Of a stretch of 6,308 nucleotides of DNA, positions 1,275-6,308 are shown piece by piece. Position 1 is the first letter of the stretch. Each line of letters begins with the position of its first letter. The position numbers and the translations under genes are program-made. Source of the DNA: Clostridiaceae bacterium (GTDB lineage Bacteria > Bacillota_A > Clostridia > Acetivibrionales > Acetivibrionaceae); NCBI GenBank assembly GCA_012513545.1, contig JAAZCB010000142.1, forward strand, positions 1 through 6,308, written 5' to 3'. A model generated the notes under the pieces. That model worked only from the letters and a program-made list of their open reading frames with translations, searched no databases and was not told where the DNA came from.

Positions 1275-1299
1275 GAACCGTCGGGGAACATCGCCTAAC
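1275..1299 (+). repeat. Right terminal inverted repeat of cassette 1
   Basis: This arm begins GAACCG and ends CGCCTAAC, and it pairs with 11-35 with four mismatches in 25 positions. Its last seven bases, GCCTAAC, fit the integron R'' consensus RYYYAAC and form the left core box of the adjoining attC-like site. Confidence 0.65.
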
Positions 1300-1387
1300 A
1301 CGGCAAGCACAACATTTTGCGAAGTTGATATAAGGTAGCAAGAATATTATAGTCGCAAAACGTCGTGCGTTGCCGGGCCCGTTGTTT
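1293..1387 (+). repeat. attC-like site A between cassettes 1 and 2 (95 nt)
   Basis: The left core box is GCCTAAC (1293-1299) and the right box begins GTT at 1381-1383 (GTTGTTT, which departs from GTTRRRY). Between them is a long imperfect hairpin. CGGCAA (1301-1306) pairs with TTGCCG (1370-1375). GCAC (1307-1310) pairs with GTGC (1365-1368). TTTTGCGA (1315-1322) pairs with TCGCAAAA (1353-1360). G1369 is an unpaired extrahelical base, a feature also expected of attC sites. The apical part holds TTGATATAAGGTAG (1325-1338) and AATATTATAG (1343-1352), both shared with the other two sites. The 223 nt between genes here contain this site, the cassette-end inverted repeats and a leader. I see no protein gene in them. 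Confidence 0.7.
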
Positions 1388-1408
1388 GCAATTGGCAGCC
1401 AGCCCCCC
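1381..1408 (+). repeat. Left terminal inverted repeat of cassette 2
   Basis: This 28-nt arm is complementary to 3584-3612. It has 8 perfect outer bases, a short unmatched centre (3 against 4 nt), then 17 perfect inner bases ending in a run of six C. This is the strongest of the three cassette-end pairs. Confidence 0.7.
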
Positions 1409-1476
1409 AAGAAAGAAAAGACGAAATTTGAAGATGCGCGGCAAAAAAGCAATAAGATGAAAGGAAAAAGGAATCT

Positions 1477-2670
1477 ATGAATTTAAATAGAGGTAGGTAT
1501 ACTGGTTCAGCCATTTTTTTTCCAATAATAATTACCCTTCTTATAAGCTGTATTCAAGCAAATGATAATTATCCTCAGCAGAATATTGGAGACGAAAATA
1601 AACTTATCATTCACTTCTTTGGCTCATCAACTTGTGGTGAGTGCCACCAAATACGTACGGAAATATTGAAACCGCTTTCTATTCAATATGCCGATGTCCT
1701 TGATATTCGCATTCATGATATAGATGACGAAAAGGGCTATCAACTATTGGATGCGATGGAAAAAGCATATAATGTAAAAGAATCTCTACCGATTCAATTG
1801 TATTTCCCTGATACACTTCTTGCCGGCGGTGAAATAATAAAGAAAGATGGCGCTGCCTTAATTGTGAAATATCTTGCATCGCCCTCGAAATGGCATTACA
1901 AGTTCAATTTTGAAGCATCAAAATCAAGTGCGGAAGCCTTACGCGAGCGTTTTCAGCAGTTTTCATTTATTGGTATTCTTGCGGCAGGTCTTGTCGACGG
2001 AATAAACCCGTGTGCCATTGCGACTATGATTTTCCTTATCTCATTTCTTGCAACACAAAAAAGGAAAAGGTCTGAAATACTCGCTATCGGCCTCTGTTTT
2101 ACTTTATCTGTTTTTTTCACCTATTTACTTCTTGGCCTTGGGGCATTTAAAATACTTACAGTGCTCGATTCATATAGATGGCTCTCCAAGGGTATTAAAT
2201 GGTCTGCTGTTCTGATTGCCGGTGGAGTGGGCCTGGTAAGTTTTTATGATGCCGCCGCATATGCGATTTCCCGCAAATCTGCTTCCATCAAATTACAGTT
2301 GCCCAAGGCCGTTAAATTGCGAATTCATAAAGTCGTTTCGGAAAACCTCACCGGCAGCAGACTGGTAATTGGCGCAATAGTCACCGGATTCCTCGTAACT
2401 CTGCTTGAAGCTGTTTGTACCGGTCAGGTATATCTGCCAACCATTGTTCTAATGACCCGGCATGGCGGCCTAAGATTGCAGGGGTGGCTCTATTTGATAC
2501 TGTATAATTTTTTATTTGTTCTCCCTCTTTTAATAGTCATGCTTATGGCATATTGGGGGCTTACATGGAAGTCGTTGTCTTCTGCGACCCAGAAACATCT
2601 TCCAATACTGAAAATTCTTCTCGGTATTGTGCTTATCGGGCTGGCGGTTTTTCTTGGTATTTCAATGTGA
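1477..2670 (+). CDS. Thioredoxin-CcdA/DsbD-like fusion, membrane thiol-disulfide electron transporter
   Basis: The 397-residue protein probably carries reducing electrons across the inner membrane to periplasmic thiols. The N-terminus has a hydrophobic segment with a lipobox, L22-I-S-C25, so it may be processed as a lipoprotein. Residues about 40-140 look like a thioredoxin fold, with active site C53-G-E-C56 and a probable cis-proline in SLPIQ (P105). From about 164 onward there are roughly six membrane segments of CcdA/DsbD-beta type. These carry the expected paired cysteines C179 in INPCA and C314 in EAVCTGQVYLPT. The order periplasmic thioredoxin then membrane core is opposite to the C-terminal thioredoxin of E. 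coli DsbD. AAGGA at 1468-1472 sits 4 nt before the ATG and a second AAGGA (1461-1465) lies further upstream. The next gene starts 12 nt after the stop and supplies a likely partner. The fold assignment is firm, and the physiological substrate is inferred. Confidence 0.85.
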   Translation: MNLNRGRYTGSAIFFPIIITLLISCIQANDNYPQQNIGDENKLIIHFFGSSTCGECHQIRTEILKPLSIQYADVLDIRIHDIDDEKGYQLLDAMEKAYNVKESLPIQLYFPDTLLAGGEIIKKDGAALIVKYLASPSKWHYKFNFEASKSSAEALRERFQQFSFIGILAAGLVDGINPCAIATMIFLISFLATQKRKRSEILAIGLCFTLSVFFTYLLLGLGAFKILTVLDSYRWLSKGIKWSAVLIAGGVGLVSFYDAAAYAISRKSASIKLQLPKAVKLRIHKVVSENLTGSRLVIGAIVTGFLVTLLEAVCTGQVYLPTIVLMTRHGGLRLQGWLYLILYNFLFVLPLLIVMLMAYWGLTWKSLSSATQKHLPILKILLGIVLIGLAVFLGISM

Positions 2671-2682
2671 AAGGAACGGAAT

Positions 2683-3489
2683 ATGTATAGGTGCTCATCG
2701 AAATTTTTATGGTTGTTTCTTTTATTTTCAGTCCTTCCGCTGTTTGCGGCTGATGACAGTCTGAATGCACAAAAATCCGCCATTCTTGATTCTGTCATCT
2801 CGACATTTAAAATAGAGCACTGTTGCGGGGCATCGCTGAAAACCTGTCTTAATAAGAAAGGAGCATGCCCAATTGCGTTACGCTTGTATAATTTTTCACT
2901 CTGGCTTGTACAGCACGAAAATGACCGCTCAAAAGTATTGGAACAACTCGGAAAAAGGTACGACGGATATTTTACCACCGCAAAGCATGTGATTGACACA
3001 TCCAACTTAACCTGGGCCGGTTCGCCTGCAGCACCTGTTCGGATTGTCGCCTATGTATCATCTTCCTGCAATATATGCAAACACATCGTTGGCGAACTAT
3101 ATGACAGCGTGACAGTTGGCTCTTTGTCAGGTAAAGTGAAACTTATGGCTATACCCTTTGGAACAGGAATAGGCGATATCGCTTTATTCGCCGCAAATTC
3201 TAAAGGCAAATTTTGGGAATTATTTCAGGCAATGAGAGAAAATAAGGTCAGATACAAAGAAGAAGATATTATAAAAATGACTAAAGATGCAGGCATTGCA
3301 GAGAAAGAAATGAGGAATCTTTTAAAGAAACCGGAATTCGATAAATTATTAAAAGATGCAAGAAATCAAGGTTCCGGGAATGGAGTAGAGCTTACACCAA
3401 CCTTTTTTATTAATGAAAAGAGATATAGCAGCTATAAAGACCCTGAGTGGATTATTGATGCCGCATTATTTGAAATTGAGAAAGAATGA
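2683..3489 (+). CDS. Exported DsbA/DsbG-like thioredoxin-fold protein with N-terminal cysteine cluster
   Basis: This 268-residue protein has a typical signal peptide at residues 1-22 (hydrophobic core, then LFAAD), so it should act outside the cytoplasm. Residues about 117-262 form a DsbA-type thioredoxin fold. The active site is C129-N-I-C132 after the strand VRIVAYVSSS, and the cis-proline is P239 in LTPTFFIN. A separate N-terminal region holds a cluster of the form CC-x6-C-x6-C (C47, C48, C55, C62). It may form disulfides or bind metal, and its role is unknown. The Shine-Dalgarno AAGGA (2671-2675) directly follows the stop codon of the CcdA-like gene, 7 nt before the ATG, so the two are almost certainly cotranscribed. 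The context suggests that the membrane protein keeps this protein reduced, making a reductase/isomerase or thiol-delivery role more likely than net oxidation. That is inference. Confidence 0.85.
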   Translation: MYRCSSKFLWLFLLFSVLPLFAADDSLNAQKSAILDSVISTFKIEHCCGASLKTCLNKKGACPIALRLYNFSLWLVQHENDRSKVLEQLGKRYDGYFTTAKHVIDTSNLTWAGSPAAPVRIVAYVSSSCNICKHIVGELYDSVTVGSLSGKVKLMAIPFGTGIGDIALFAANSKGKFWELFQAMRENKVRYKEEDIIKMTKDAGIAEKEMRNLLKKPEFDKLLKDARNQGSGNGVELTPTFFINEKRYSSYKDPEWIIDAALFEIEKE

Positions 3490-3507
3490 ACTAATTAATA
3501 AGACAAA

Positions 3508-3539
3508 GTGTCAAATTTGTATTGACACATCATTTTTTT
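3508..3539 (+). terminator. Rho-independent terminator after the redox operon
   Basis: GTGTCAA (3508-3514) and TTGACAC (3522-3528) form a perfect 7-bp stem around a 7-nt loop. It is followed, 4 nt later, by seven T (3533-3539). It lies 19 nt after the stop codon of the DsbA-like gene and inside the cassette. The stem is short and only moderately GC-rich, so termination may be partial. Confidence 0.6.
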
Positions 3540-3583
3540 CAGACAAGATTGCCGCGCGAAGAATGAATACACGAAGACGAAGA

Positions 3584-3612
3584 GGGGGGCTGGCTGCCAA
3601 CAGACAAACAAC
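3584..3612 (+). repeat. Right terminal inverted repeat of cassette 2
   Basis: This 29-nt arm begins with six G and ends CAAACAAC. It pairs with 1381-1408, giving 25 matched positions in two perfect blocks of 17 and 8. Its last seven bases, AAACAAC, form the R'' box of the next attC-like site. They break the RYYYAAC consensus but keep the invariant AAC. Confidence 0.7.
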
Positions 3613-3778
3613 AAACGCATGGCGGTTCCGGGCTCAAAGCAGCCCTCCACCCAAATGCCCGCTTGGACTAGGGGTAGGCTGAAATACCGTTCCATCAAGC
3701 TCCCAAAGCCTCGCTTGACTGAACAGTATTTCAGCATTATTATAGGCGGGCACTTCGCCATGCGCCAACCCGTTGTAC
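3606..3778 (+). repeat. attC-like site B between cassettes 2 and 3, enlarged (173 nt)
   Basis: The core boxes are AAACAAC (3606-3612) and GTTGTAC (3772-3778). The main stem pairs CGCATGGCG (3616-3624) with CGCCATGCG (3756-3764), and TGCCCGC (3656-3662) with GCGGGCA (3746-3752). The shared loop elements are TTGGACTAGGGGTAG (3663-3677) and ATTATTATAG (3736-3745). Compared with sites A and C there are two insertions. One is a small hairpin, GGGCT/AGCCC (3630-3645). The other, at the apex, pairs GCTGAAATACCGTTC (3678-3692) with GAACAGTATTTCAGC (3721-3735), and TCAAGC (3695-3700) with GCTTGA (3713-3718). The 387 nt between genes here hold the terminator, this site and the cassette 3 leader. The open frames crossing it appear spurious. 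Confidence 0.7.
3678..3735 (+). repeat. Nested apical hairpin inserted in attC-like site B
   Basis: The outer arms of 15 nt match at 14 of 15 positions and the inner 6-bp arms are perfect, with 2-nt unpaired spacers between them and a 12-nt loop. It sits between the two conserved loop motifs, where site A has 4 nt and site C has 5. Its near-perfect pairing suggests either a captured small palindromic element or an enlarged variable terminal structure. Confidence 0.65.
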
Positions 3779-3794
3779 GCCAGCCCGCGCCAAC
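3772..3794 (+). repeat. Left terminal inverted repeat of cassette 3
   Basis: This 23-nt arm is complementary to 4614-4636 at 19 of 23 positions, without gaps. The outer nine and inner eight bases match perfectly. All four mismatches fall in the middle, where both ends happen to carry GCCAGC in the same orientation. Confidence 0.65.
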
Positions 3795-3821
3795 GGAAAA
3801 AAAACCATAAGAGCATGGGGA

Positions 3822-3840
3822 GCCAGCCGTCATAGCTGGC
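3822..3840 (+). other. GC-rich hairpin in the cassette 3 leader
   Basis: GCCAGC (3822-3827) and GCTGGC (3835-3840) form a perfect 6-bp stem with a 7-nt loop, ending 36 nt before the start codon at 3877. A further GCCAGC at 3779-3784 could compete for the same GCTGGC arm. No T-run follows, so it is not a simple terminator. Whether it regulates the downstream gene cannot be told from one copy. Confidence 0.4.
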
Positions 3841-3876
3841 GGAGAAGAAAAGGGAATTTAGGAAAAGGAGAGACTA

Positions 3877-4536
3877 ATGATATTTAGAAATTCACTTTAT
3901 CTAATTTGTTTAATATCTTCATACATTTCTGCTGCAAATGACATTTGTGGTAACTGGTTAAATATTGGATTCACAGAGGAAGGTGTATATAATAATGAGC
4001 CATACTCTGGTACTATGTATCTGGACACAATAGAGTATATGATGATAGTGGATTCAGATACATGCAAAGCATTTACATTTAACCAGAATCGAATTTATAA
4101 CTTGAACCATTCATTTGTGGTTTCAAATGATGTAATTACAACACAAGCATTAGAAACTCCGATTTCATGGAAAAGGAATGGCGATACTCTATTTACTTCC
4201 ATGTATTATGTTGATAATGACGATTGGGAAAAGGTTACTTTTATTTTTATTTCAACACCATCATCGCAGTTTCCTAATATTTGGCCTGTAACAGATGCGA
4301 TTTATATACCTGACAGATTAACACCATTTGGCCCTTTTAGTTTTGGATCAAGCCCTGATAATCCTGTAAATACCAAGCCGGTAAAAAGAATGAATAAATT
4401 TAAAAGCAAAAGTCAATTTTCATATTTTCAACTCAATGGTCGCATTTGCAAAAAACTCTCAAACCATTTTCCCCAGATTGTGATAATTAACGACATAGAT
4501 TTGCGTGCTAACCAAGTCAAAGTATATATAAAATGA
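3877..4536 (+). CDS. Small exported protein of unknown function
   Basis: I do not recognise this 219-residue protein. Residues 1-20 form a signal peptide (short basic start, hydrophobic core, ISAAND), so it should be exported. The mature part is rich in aromatic residues, beta-strand patterns and acidic turns. It has two early cysteines (C24, C63) that could form a disulfide. The opening CGNW resembles lipocalin-like beta-barrel starts only loosely. Residues 147-165 are proline/glycine-rich, like a linker. The C-terminal segment from about 172 contains YFQLNGR (183-189) and ends in VKVYIK, which vaguely resembles the C-terminal T9SS sorting domains of Bacteroidota/Fibrobacterota. That comparison is weak. 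The start is supported by AAGGAG (3865-3870), 6 nt before the ATG. The gene is alone in its cassette, between two attC-like sites. Confidence 0.75.
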   Translation: MIFRNSLYLICLISSYISAANDICGNWLNIGFTEEGVYNNEPYSGTMYLDTIEYMMIVDSDTCKAFTFNQNRIYNLNHSFVVSNDVITTQALETPISWKRNGDTLFTSMYYVDNDDWEKVTFIFISTPSSQFPNIWPVTDAIYIPDRLTPFGPFSFGSSPDNPVNTKPVKRMNKFKSKSQFSYFQLNGRICKKLSNHFPQIVIINDIDLRANQVKVYIK

Positions 4537-4613
4537 ACATATGGTGAAATCTTTCCCGGCCGGAAAATCTGAGCGCGTCCTGCTTAAGAACCATGCGGAA
4601 AAGGGAAATAGGA

Positions 4614-4636
4614 GTTGGCGCAAGCCAGCGTACAAC
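4614..4636 (+). repeat. Right terminal inverted repeat of cassette 3
   Basis: This 23-nt arm starts GTTGGCGC and ends GCGTACAAC, and pairs with 3772-3794 with four mismatches. Its last bases are the R'' box of attC-like site C. Confidence 0.65.
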
Positions 4637-4726
4637 AGGCCAAGGCCAAAAATTTACAAAGTTGATCTATGGTAGATTAAAATATTATAGTTGTAAATCT
4701 TCGGCCTGTTGGCCGGACCGTTGTAA
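4630..4726 (+). repeat. attC-like site C between cassettes 3 and 4 (97 nt)
   Basis: The core boxes are GTACAAC (4630-4636) and GTTGTAA (4720-4726). The hairpin pairs ATTTACAA (4652-4659) perfectly with TTGTAAAT (4691-4698). The GC-rich outer part pairs GGCCAA and GGCC (4638-4647) with GGCC and TTGGCC (4703-4714), leaving two unpaired bases on the right arm. An alternative pairing of CAACAGGCC with GGCCTGTTG is also possible. The loop carries TTGATCTATGGTAG (4662-4675) and AATATTATAG (4681-4690), nearly identical to site A although the stems differ completely. Confidence 0.7.
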
Positions 4727-6182
4727 AACATTGCATGGGCAAACACTCTAAAAAAGATATAACAAGAGGGGCGCATAAAAAAATGACTGATTAATGCAAT
4801 TTGATAAACATCTACATAATATGGTATTATAAAACAATCAAACGTTCTGTTCTACCCCACAAAAAAAGGTAAAAGAAAAAAGAAGGATTATAAATGTTTG
4901 CTTCTAAATCCACTATACATTTAAAAGTAGATCCAGTAAATGTCACATTAGGTGAATTATCTGAAAAAATAACAAGCACAGGGAGAGTGTCTGGATATCA
5001 AATTGAAATGTGGCATAAAGGTTTAAATGAACATAAATACTTATCAGCATCTGACATAGATGTTTTAGCACATAAGATTCAATCACTTGCTGACAAGTGG
5101 GATGAGAAGTGGAGCATAATAAAAGAAAAAAAAGAAAATAAAGAAACTGCTGAAAGAATTACAAATAATGCTAATAGAACATTTTCAGAAATTGATAAAA
5201 TATTACATCGAGCACTAGATGTTAATAATGCTGCAAACTTGGATTGGGATTCATTAAAAGATAATAGAAAATTCGAGGTAAAGGAATTTGAAAAACAACC
5301 TTTTATTATTTACTCTGAAGACAAGAAACCTCTAAGACTAAAAGATAAATTATATAAGGAACCGATGGAGGAAGACATTGAGTATCAACCAAAATTAAAT
5401 CTATTTGACCATATTATAACAGCATGGAAAGAAAATAAAATTAGCGAAAAGAAATATGATTTTGATTCAGATCATAAAAGATGGAGAAAAGAACAAGATT
5501 TGAGAGAAAGCATATTTAAAAAAGAGTTAAATCAATGGGAAACTGAAGAGGCTGAATTTATTAGAAAACAAACTGAACACAATCAAAATATTGATAACAT
5601 TAAAAAAGGATACTTTCAAAAAGAAGTACCAGCAATAATTGGAAATTGTGAACAAGTATTGAAGAATTCTCAATACCCAATAAATTTTGTTAAAAACTTT
5701 GAAATTGATTTTAATATTTGTAATGGAGTATTAATAGTTAATTATTTACTTCCGAATAAAGATGATTTTCCGACATTAAAGGAAATGAAATATCTTGTTA
5801 CAAATAACGAACTGAAAGAAAGTCACCTTACTGAAAACCAATTAAATGAAATGTATGATACCACATTATATAACATTTCCTTAAGAACAATTCATGAGTT
5901 GTTTAAAACCGATTTAATAAATGTTATATCAACAATTGTGTTTAACGGTTGGGTTGAATTTATCAATCCAGCAACTGGTAATATTGAGAAAGCTTGTATC
6001 TTGTCATTAAGTACAGCGAAGGATAAATTTGATAAAATAAATTTAAAAAACATAAATCCTAAAGATTGTTTTAAAAGCCTAAAAGGCGTTAGTAGTTCAA
6101 AGCTATATGGATTAACACCAATAAAGCCGATTCTTCAAATAAATAGGGAAGATAAAAGGTTTATATCATCCATTGAGGTAGC
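4721..6182 (+). mobile_element. Gene cassette 4, interrupted by an insertion sequence (partial)
   Basis: The cassette starts at the G/TT crossover 4720/4721 (GTTGTAAAACATTGC). No matching R'' box such as GCAATGTTTTACAAC is found downstream in the window, because the gene is cut by an insertion sequence at 6183. The cassette end, if it survives, should lie beyond that element. Unlike the earlier cassettes it has a recognisable promoter of its own. Confidence 0.55.
4801..4830 (+). promoter_or_regulatory. Sigma70-like promoter of cassette 4, with extended -10
   Basis: TTGATA (4801-4806) serves as the -35 element and TATTAT (4825-4830) as the -10, separated by 18 nt. The -10 is preceded by TG at 4822-4823, giving TGnTATTAT, the extended -10 form. 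Transcription would start near 4837, leaving a leader of about 57 nt before the ATG at 4894. This is the best promoter match in the window. Confidence 0.6.
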
Positions 6183-6252
6183 TGTCAACACCGGTTTAAT
6201 ATTTCCCACATTCACCGGAATATTATTTCCCATTATGCTTTCCAGAAGATAA
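4894..6252 (+). CDS. Mrr-type restriction endonuclease-like protein, N-terminal part only; truncated by an IS
   Basis: The open frame encodes 452 residues, of which only about 1-430 are native. Residues about 55-250 are highly charged and helical, probably coiled-coil in part. Residues 270-425 match, from memory, the conserved region that precedes the nuclease domain in a family of large Mrr-like restriction proteins: SLRTIHELF (329-337), VFNGWVEFINPATG (349-362) and CFKSLKGVSSSKLYGLTP (392-409), then INREDKRFI (416-424). In that family the Mrr catalytic domain follows almost at once. Here the frame enters an IS21-type end after A430, and the last 22 residues come from the element. The catalytic domain is therefore absent and the gene is best seen as disrupted. 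AAGGA (4883-4887) lies 6 nt before the ATG. The ancestral role was probably DNA cleavage in phage or plasmid defence. Confidence 0.75.
   Translation: MFASKSTIHLKVDPVNVTLGELSEKITSTGRVSGYQIEMWHKGLNEHKYLSASDIDVLAHKIQSLADKWDEKWSIIKEKKENKETAERITNNANRTFSEIDKILHRALDVNNAANLDWDSLKDNRKFEVKEFEKQPFIIYSEDKKPLRLKDKLYKEPMEEDIEYQPKLNLFDHIITAWKENKISEKKYDFDSDHKRWRKEQDLRESIFKKELNQWETEEAEFIRKQTEHNQNIDNIKKGYFQKEVPAIIGNCEQVLKNSQYPINFVKNFEIDFNICNGVLIVNYLLPNKDDFPTLKEMKYLVTNNELKESHLTENQLNEMYDTTLYNISLRTIHELFKTDLINVISTIVFNGWVEFINPATGNIEKACILSLSTAKDKFDKINLKNINPKDCFKSLKGVSSSKLYGLTPIKPILQINREDKRFISSIEVAVNTGLIFPTFTGILFPIMLSRR
6189..6236 (+). repeat. Two tandem terminal repeats of the IS21-type element
   Basis: CACCGG followed by an A/T-rich stretch and TTTCCCA occurs at 6189-6212 and again at 6213-6236, with a 24-nt period and 18 of 24 identical positions. 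Repeats of this kind inside the ends are typical of IS21-family elements, where they are thought to bind the IstA transposase. Confidence 0.65.
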
Positions 6253-6308
6253 CAGATTTGAGGGTATTAGACCCAATTTAGTGCGGTTTTTGATCCTGTA
6301 GCTTTCTC
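6223..6308 (-). CDS. istB: IstB-like ATPase, transposition helper protein (C-terminus only)
   Basis: The minus strand reads into the window from the right edge and ends at a TAA (complement of 6223-6225). The 27 visible residues begin ESYRIKNRTKLGL, and the codon cut by the edge ends in GA, compatible with glycine. A GESYR(L/I)K-type stretch followed by a basic tail is characteristic of the extreme C-terminus of IstB, the AAA+ helper of the IS21 transposase. The ATPase motifs lie outside the window. The stop codon falls inside the second terminal repeat, so the gene end overlaps the transposon end. Confidence 0.65.
   Translation of the reverse strand, partial: ESYRIKNRTKLGLIPSNLLSSGKHNGK

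Follow-up and report, generated by a model that had tools for sequence, protein, structure and literature searches.

The stretch of DNA described here (6308 nt of contig JAAZCB010000142.1, referred to at its full length as the window) is read, with middling confidence, as an array of variant integron-like mobile gene cassettes from a probably Chitinispirillum-like bacterium (Fibrobacterota), with IS91-type elements that carry a recombinase of the IntI clade as the plausible agents of movement. Three cassettes lie in the window in full and two in part, and the main open reading frames (ORFs) are all on the + strand, as are the features located below. Three hairpins lie between the ORFs, namely site A (1300-1380), site B (3613-3771) and site C (4637-4719), each with ...AAC before it and GTT after it. 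In all three complete cassettes, the 8-mer at the start of the block is the exact complement of the block's own 3' end: GTTAGGCG/CGCCTAAC in cassette 1, GTTGTTTG/CAAACAAC in cassette 2, and GTTGTACG/CGTACAAC in cassette 3. Such end complementarity within each cassette is a signature of integron-type cassettes.

Positions 1-18 comprise the right end (CCGCCAACCC) of a preceding site and the R' box of cassette 1, and are complementary to 1274-1299. The latter segment carries the outer arm and R'' box of cassette 1, and its complementarity to 11-36 amounts to 85%. The R' box and outer arm of cassette 2 (1381-1408) correspond to an outer arm and R'' box at 3584-3612, recognised by end pairing, with 17/17 complementary positions between 1392-1408 and 3584-3600. 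In cassette 3, the R' box and outer arm (3772-3794) belong to a pair that is 81% complementary to 4614-4639, and the outer arm and R'' box at 4614-4636 were likewise identified by end pairing. A further R' box marks the start of cassette 4 (4720-4746), which ends outside the window; no downstream partner above the null was found for it in the window. Sites A and C were delimited by motif match, folding and covariance model, and site B, which includes a side hairpin and an apical hairpin, by folding.

These sites share with integron cassettes the RYYYAAC/GTTRRRY-like boxes, the pairing of a cassette's own ends, the hairpin 3' of the genes, the arrangement in arrays, and bottom-strand folding. 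Their architecture differs from that of canonical attC sites, in which the extrahelical bases are by definition on the R''-L'' arm, as set out in the part of PMC2727003 drawn on here. The extra bases of the window sites are found on the right (R'-L') arm, one in A and two in C, in both cases 6 bp from the spacer. In site B, the lowest stem is free of single extra bases, and the left arm carries the whole side hairpin. The central spacer is mainly unpaired on the right, with 1 nt left and 5 nt right in A and C, and 3 nt left and 7 nt right in B. Furthermore, a few unpaired bases beyond the R box are followed by a second helix of about 8-17 bp that joins the two ends of the cassette, whereas canonical pairing ends at the R box. 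Measured against integron attC membership, the complementarity of R'' and R' at a cassette's own ends is present, while the R''-L'' extrahelical base and the limit of pairing at the R box are absent.

These features were compared in a hand-picked set of 19 family sites and 15 canonical sites, from which weaker hairpins were left out, as were two canonical candidates in L107 and a further one in L110; the end-pairing test covered eight family cassettes and nine canonical ones. Pairing beyond the R box scored a mean of 10.8 for the own ends of the family cassettes vs 4.7 (maximum 7) for the ends of different cassettes. The outer-arm extension is present in 3/3 window cassettes and in 7/8 family cassettes at p <= 0.012, and paired R boxes with <=1 mismatch also occur in 7/8. 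In the minimum-energy folds of the 19 family sites, G.T pairs fall on the bottom strand 47 times and on the top strand 12 times (binomial 2.6e-6, a value overstated since the sites are related). The 15 canonical sites gave 26 bottom and 24 top. The bias in the family sites suggests that the bottom strand is the strand kept foldable.

A model of the site family (R1), built from sites A and C, was run against 167 genomes taken to be Fibrobacterota. Such a search of related genomes had been proposed in the sequence-only reading, and it yielded seven further sites in 4/167 genomes (four in G405, the others in G406, G418 and G420) with expectation values (E) of 1.2e-17 to 1.9e-7; two more matches at E 0.39 and 0.46 were disregarded. 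R1 fails to recognise site B, its sole match there, on the opposite strand, reaching 5.5 bits. The successor model R2, made from nine aligned sites, recovered the same seven sites, followed by one in G424 at E 0.0013 and nine matches at 0.02-0.94. R2 found no match in 18 IntI-bearing stretches of 4-20 kb each, and among 386 relatives of a Dictyoglomota genome (mostly other phyla, few Fibrobacterota) it returned two weak matches (0.007 and 0.008). Over the nine aligned sites, 95.2% of pair cells hold standard pairs and 8/14 pairs show a double change; the covariation score of 0.373 compares with 0.098 in shuffles, 0/500 of which scored as high, albeit in an alignment that was fitted to the model and hence leans toward pairing. 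The hairpins and their pairing stems are not due to chance. Site B is 91.6% identical over 166 nt to a site of G418 (L126:6966-7131), and site C is 90% identical over 90 nt to a G418 site. Recent duplication of a single site, which could have accounted for the shared loop, is unlikely for A and C in view of their different, covarying stems and the homologues in other genomes.

The sequence-only reading had proposed a conserved loop above divergent stems. Two motifs are indeed found at the expected places, TTGATATAAGGTAG (1325-1338) and AATATTATAG (1343-1352) in site A, TTGGACTAGGGGTAG (3663-3677) and ATTATTATAG (3736-3745) in site B, and TTGATCTATGGTAG (4662-4675) and again AATATTATAG (4681-4690) in site C, and the stems differ but still pair. 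The motif pair is thus present in 3/3 window sites, if one or two bases are allowed before GGTAG. The first motif of site B is one base longer than the proposed pattern, and 58 nt that form an apical hairpin separate its motif halves. The shared part is therefore not always the apex, being an internal loop in B. Nor is the loop on average more conserved than the stem, with mean pairwise identities over the nine aligned sites of 0.74 and 0.73, respectively.

Both exact motifs occur in 3/19 family sites, all three in the window; a looser form, with thresholds chosen by the analyst, is found in 7/19 vs 41/5700 mononucleotide shuffles. In G406 and G418, the second motif of the B-type sites is degenerate, with 3-4 mismatches. 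Other apical parts are seen in 5/19 family sites from G405 and G420 (one each in L127, L128 and L129, two in L170), and in the arrays of L127, L128 and L129 these differing loops stand alongside class-1 sites. The G424 relative (L210) keeps the stem, with a short and unrelated loop. The conserved apical motif is the trait of one site subfamily and is dispensable for cassette-site identity, since only part of the family sites carry it and others have different loops. Absence of the motif from many sites of one array, named beforehand as an observation that would count against a conserved loop, is seen to some extent in the relatives and not in the window. A protein that reads the apex is conjectural, as different loops are found at other sites of these genomes (three of the sites being members of the same arrays), and replacement of the apical part of a canonical site is reported to have only minor effects in the portion of PMC2727003 used here. 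The other suggestion, that the sites form a recombination-site lineage of their own, is supported by the cassette-specific R boxes, the extended outer arms, the one-sided spacer and the right-arm extra base, as well as by the lack of model matches in the IntI-bearing stretches and of canonical IntI at E <= 1e-50 in the site-bearing genomes (see below).

Several minor observations concern the same loops. By eye, sites L128:11840-11922, L127:287-370 and L129:15968-16060 form a second class with a shared apical TAAAGC...GCATTA. The B-type sites in G405 and G406 have in common a side hairpin, GGGCGAGTACGCCC, and the sequence CACTA(A/T)GGTA, above lower stems that differ yet pair (also by eye). The loop pattern in its exact form also occurs in 13 stretches of viral_contigs and 18 of genome_contigs, which were folded and inspected by eye; none seemed to lie inside an attC-like stem, and they are taken as chance. 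A promoter reading of the TATAAT in the loop was dropped, as the stems at the would-be -35 position are variable (judged by eye, no scan made).

In G405 and G406, an element consisting of a recombinase gene followed by a Y2/IS91 transposase gene lies inside arrays of family sites. The G405 transposase matches PF04986 (E 1.5e-61) and PF14319 (E 1.3e-30), and the recombinase also has a related transposase as its neighbour in G416, in G441 and, in two instances, in G420. Comparison of copies placed the left end at GTTGAAC[AC]AAGCC... and the right end at ...GTTCAAC, a hairpin, about 6 nt and GTT. All five exact matches to the right-end motif in G405 and G406 are followed by GTTG, which by eye continues like a cassette arm. 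Elsewhere, the right end is followed by GTTG in G441, GTTA in G416 and, in two G420 copies, an unclear GTGTT. The left end of the element in L171 is on the R'' side of a site. L130, from G406, has a class-1 site directly followed by GTTGAACAAAACCGC, a left end of insertion sequence (IS) type, and a second such left end after an apparent IS-type right hairpin. The 3' hairpin end of IS91 abuts a fixed tetranucleotide, GTTC or CTTG. The array element resembles this family in its Zn_Tnp_IS91 and Y2_Tnp domains and in a 3' hairpin adjoining GTTG, and differs in carrying an IntI-clade tyrosine recombinase and R-box-like paired ends, although some IS91 members in ISfinder reportedly carry such a recombinase gene. 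A Y2 HUH transposase is not among the products of the window cassettes in a Pfam scan; it is present in the linked element. As a separate observation, a Y2-type transposase gene (32% identity) also lies between attC sites in a canonical Fibrobacterota integron array (L105:2071-2973).

The integron integrase model TIGR02249 at E <= 1e-50 detected proteins in 15/167 genomes, 13 of them above the cut-off and several on short contigs. At this threshold it detected none in the four genomes bearing the sites (G405, G406, G418 and G420), drafts that may lack genes. The tyrosine recombinases of these genomes and of G424 include XerC/D types. A third kind, present in G405, G406 and G420, scores 150-177 bits in NCBIfam vs the integron cut-off of 265. 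In a midpoint-rooted tree of 60 proteins, the recombinases of the IS elements fall into the IntI-containing half, apart from XerC/D (99/100), and L157, L158, L161, L163, L181 and L183 form one group (98/90). A database search showed that Chitinispirillum alkaliphilum carries an 86%-identical recombinase. A second IntI-related group, several members of which have long N-termini (G420:C272, G421:C121, G434:C103, G440:C537, G553:C114 and others), sits between the IS91 companions and true IntI. IntI-like recombinases of the L156 type, with a long N-terminus, were considered as the enzyme and rejected, as no hairpin of G420:C272 was judged to be of the family type. The XerC-like L151, also considered, is encoded on a G418 contig that bears two of the sites, and has a long branch in the tree.

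Pairing, junctions, covariation and the bottom-strand bias are properties of the sequences themselves; from the shared ends, place and kinship, we infer movement of the cassettes by IS91-type elements. In the proposed mechanism, a cassette unit would run from its GTTR... start to an attC-like hairpin at its 3' end, directly before the GTTR of the following cassette. In an excised circle, the cassette ends would be joined, and the bottom strand could fold as one long hairpin comprising, in order, the outer helix, a small internal loop, the R box, the one-sided spacer, the L helix with the right-arm extra base, the inner stem and the apical structure. Strand exchange would take place at ^GTTR on this folded strand. 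The candidate enzyme is the IntI-clade tyrosine recombinase carried by the IS91-type elements, whose HUH transposase may supply the single-stranded circles, so that the gene cassettes would be non-autonomous partners of these elements. It is suggested more tentatively, as a possibility short of probable, that this constitutes a cassette system separate from integrons, in which elements pairing an HUH transposase with an insertion-less IntI relative have cassettes as partners, the HUH enzyme making single strands and the recombinase inserting the folded strand.

The main rival is a canonical integron, that is, a sedentary integron or an integrase-less cluster of attC sites (CALIN), in which canonical IntI is missing from the drafts; the attC sites would be drifted ones, and the IS91-type element would do no more than target attC-like sequences. 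This account is a serious but still doubtful one. The cassette-specific R boxes and the gene direction are integron-like, canonical IntI above the cut-off is found in 13 genomes of the phylum, and attC sites are known as targets of other elements too. It has to contend with the 0/4 result for TIGR02249 in the site-bearing genomes, with the different loops of the canonical Fibrobacterota attC sites examined, with the position of the extra base on the other arm, and with 7/9 canonical cassettes that have no outer arms. Several observations also weigh against movement by the IS91-type element, which could merely target cassette junctions. Just 1/6 IS copies shows significant pairing of the outer arms past the R box, a count in which the L171 row mixes two copies (the right end of the second was taken, and the printed length is wrong). 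The IS ends are devoid of the apical motif, and in L170 and L171 the IS is oriented opposite to the array. G418 has homologous sites and yet no match to the IS recombinase at E <= 1e-30. Elements of this kind are present in G420, on contigs where no family site was seen. The family cassette of L170 fails the outer-arm test (p 0.606), and among the nine canonical cassettes, with extension scores of 3-9, two show some extension (p 0.010 and 0.052). Finally, a right-arm extra base would favour the top strand under the canonical rules given in the consulted part of PMC2727003, in conflict with the bottom-strand bias.

Two further explanations dispense with a tyrosine recombinase. Movement by the HUH transposase alone, as IS91-like rolling-circle transposition with insertion 5' of GTTG, would explain why a hairpin plus GTT terminates the cassettes as well as those five IS copies of G405/G406 whose right ends are readable, and a Y2 transposase is available. 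It is nevertheless improbable: to our knowledge, rolling-circle ends need neither paired R boxes nor outer arms, each of which is found in 7/8 cassettes, and the IS also carries a tyrosine recombinase. That the hairpins are RNA elements, such as structured leaders or terminators with a loop read as RNA, is hardly credible. The covariation of the stems would suit it, but no Rfam covariance model matched at E <= 1 (0 matches), the G.T bias concerns the strand opposite the genes, and the pairing of cassette ends across 0.8-3.6 kb has no RNA reading.

If the cassettes do belong to a separate system associated with IS91-type elements, integrons would have in it a living sister, one that could hint at how a tyrosine recombinase came to use folded single strands. 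As far as we know, the origin of folded-single-strand recombination in integrons is an open question, and arrays with sites built on the same plan as an element that encodes an HUH transposase together with an IntI-clade recombinase would make the origin of this chemistry directly testable. Besides the common apical motif of the subfamily, the lack of detected canonical IntI in the four related genomes sets these arrays apart from integrons, and they would be worth checking against current integron-finding methods. Strand-biased circularising elements of the SE-6945 type are comparable in that their tyrosine recombinases are proposed to act on one strand. They differ, as far as the part of PMC9345347 used here goes, in nicking independently of HUH enzymes and in having no attC-like inverted repeats and no cassettes.

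The cargo of the window is varied. Cassette 1 encodes a 390 aa protein (81-1253) with a weak resemblance to nucleotidyltransferases (Pfam NTP_transf_2, E 0.0087, below cut-off). Cassette 2 contains two ORFs, the first for a CcdA/SfLAP-like membrane protein (1477-2670), assigned by Pfam and protein relatives, and the second for a DsbA-like thioredoxin (2683-3489; PF13462, E 1.9e-16). Among the 120 relatives listed for the CcdA-like protein, 15 come with an organism name and the ten closest do not; the 15 comprise 12 Chitinispirillaceae, one Fibrobacter sp., one Fibrobacterota and one Proteobacteria metagenome-assembled genome. The 219 aa product of cassette 3 (3877-4536) is without a Pfam family. 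Cassette 4 encodes a type IV restriction enzyme-like protein (4894-6252; PADLOC mREase_IV, E 1.8e-31; no Pfam match), which is probably cut short. The 3' end of the window (6213-6308) resembles DNA beside IS91-type fragments in L171 (572-666, 78%) and L130 (84.5%). Since a transposase gene of L171 seems to be disrupted by the counterpart of this DNA, a further insertion sequence is likely to begin here and to truncate the ORF of cassette 4. The related arrays also carry restriction- or defence-like genes (L128:6919-8976, L170:13055-18346, L171:7449-9056), including GmrSD, an HNH protein, DUF2326 and a BfiI-like nuclease adjoining ORFs that appear methylase-like by eye.

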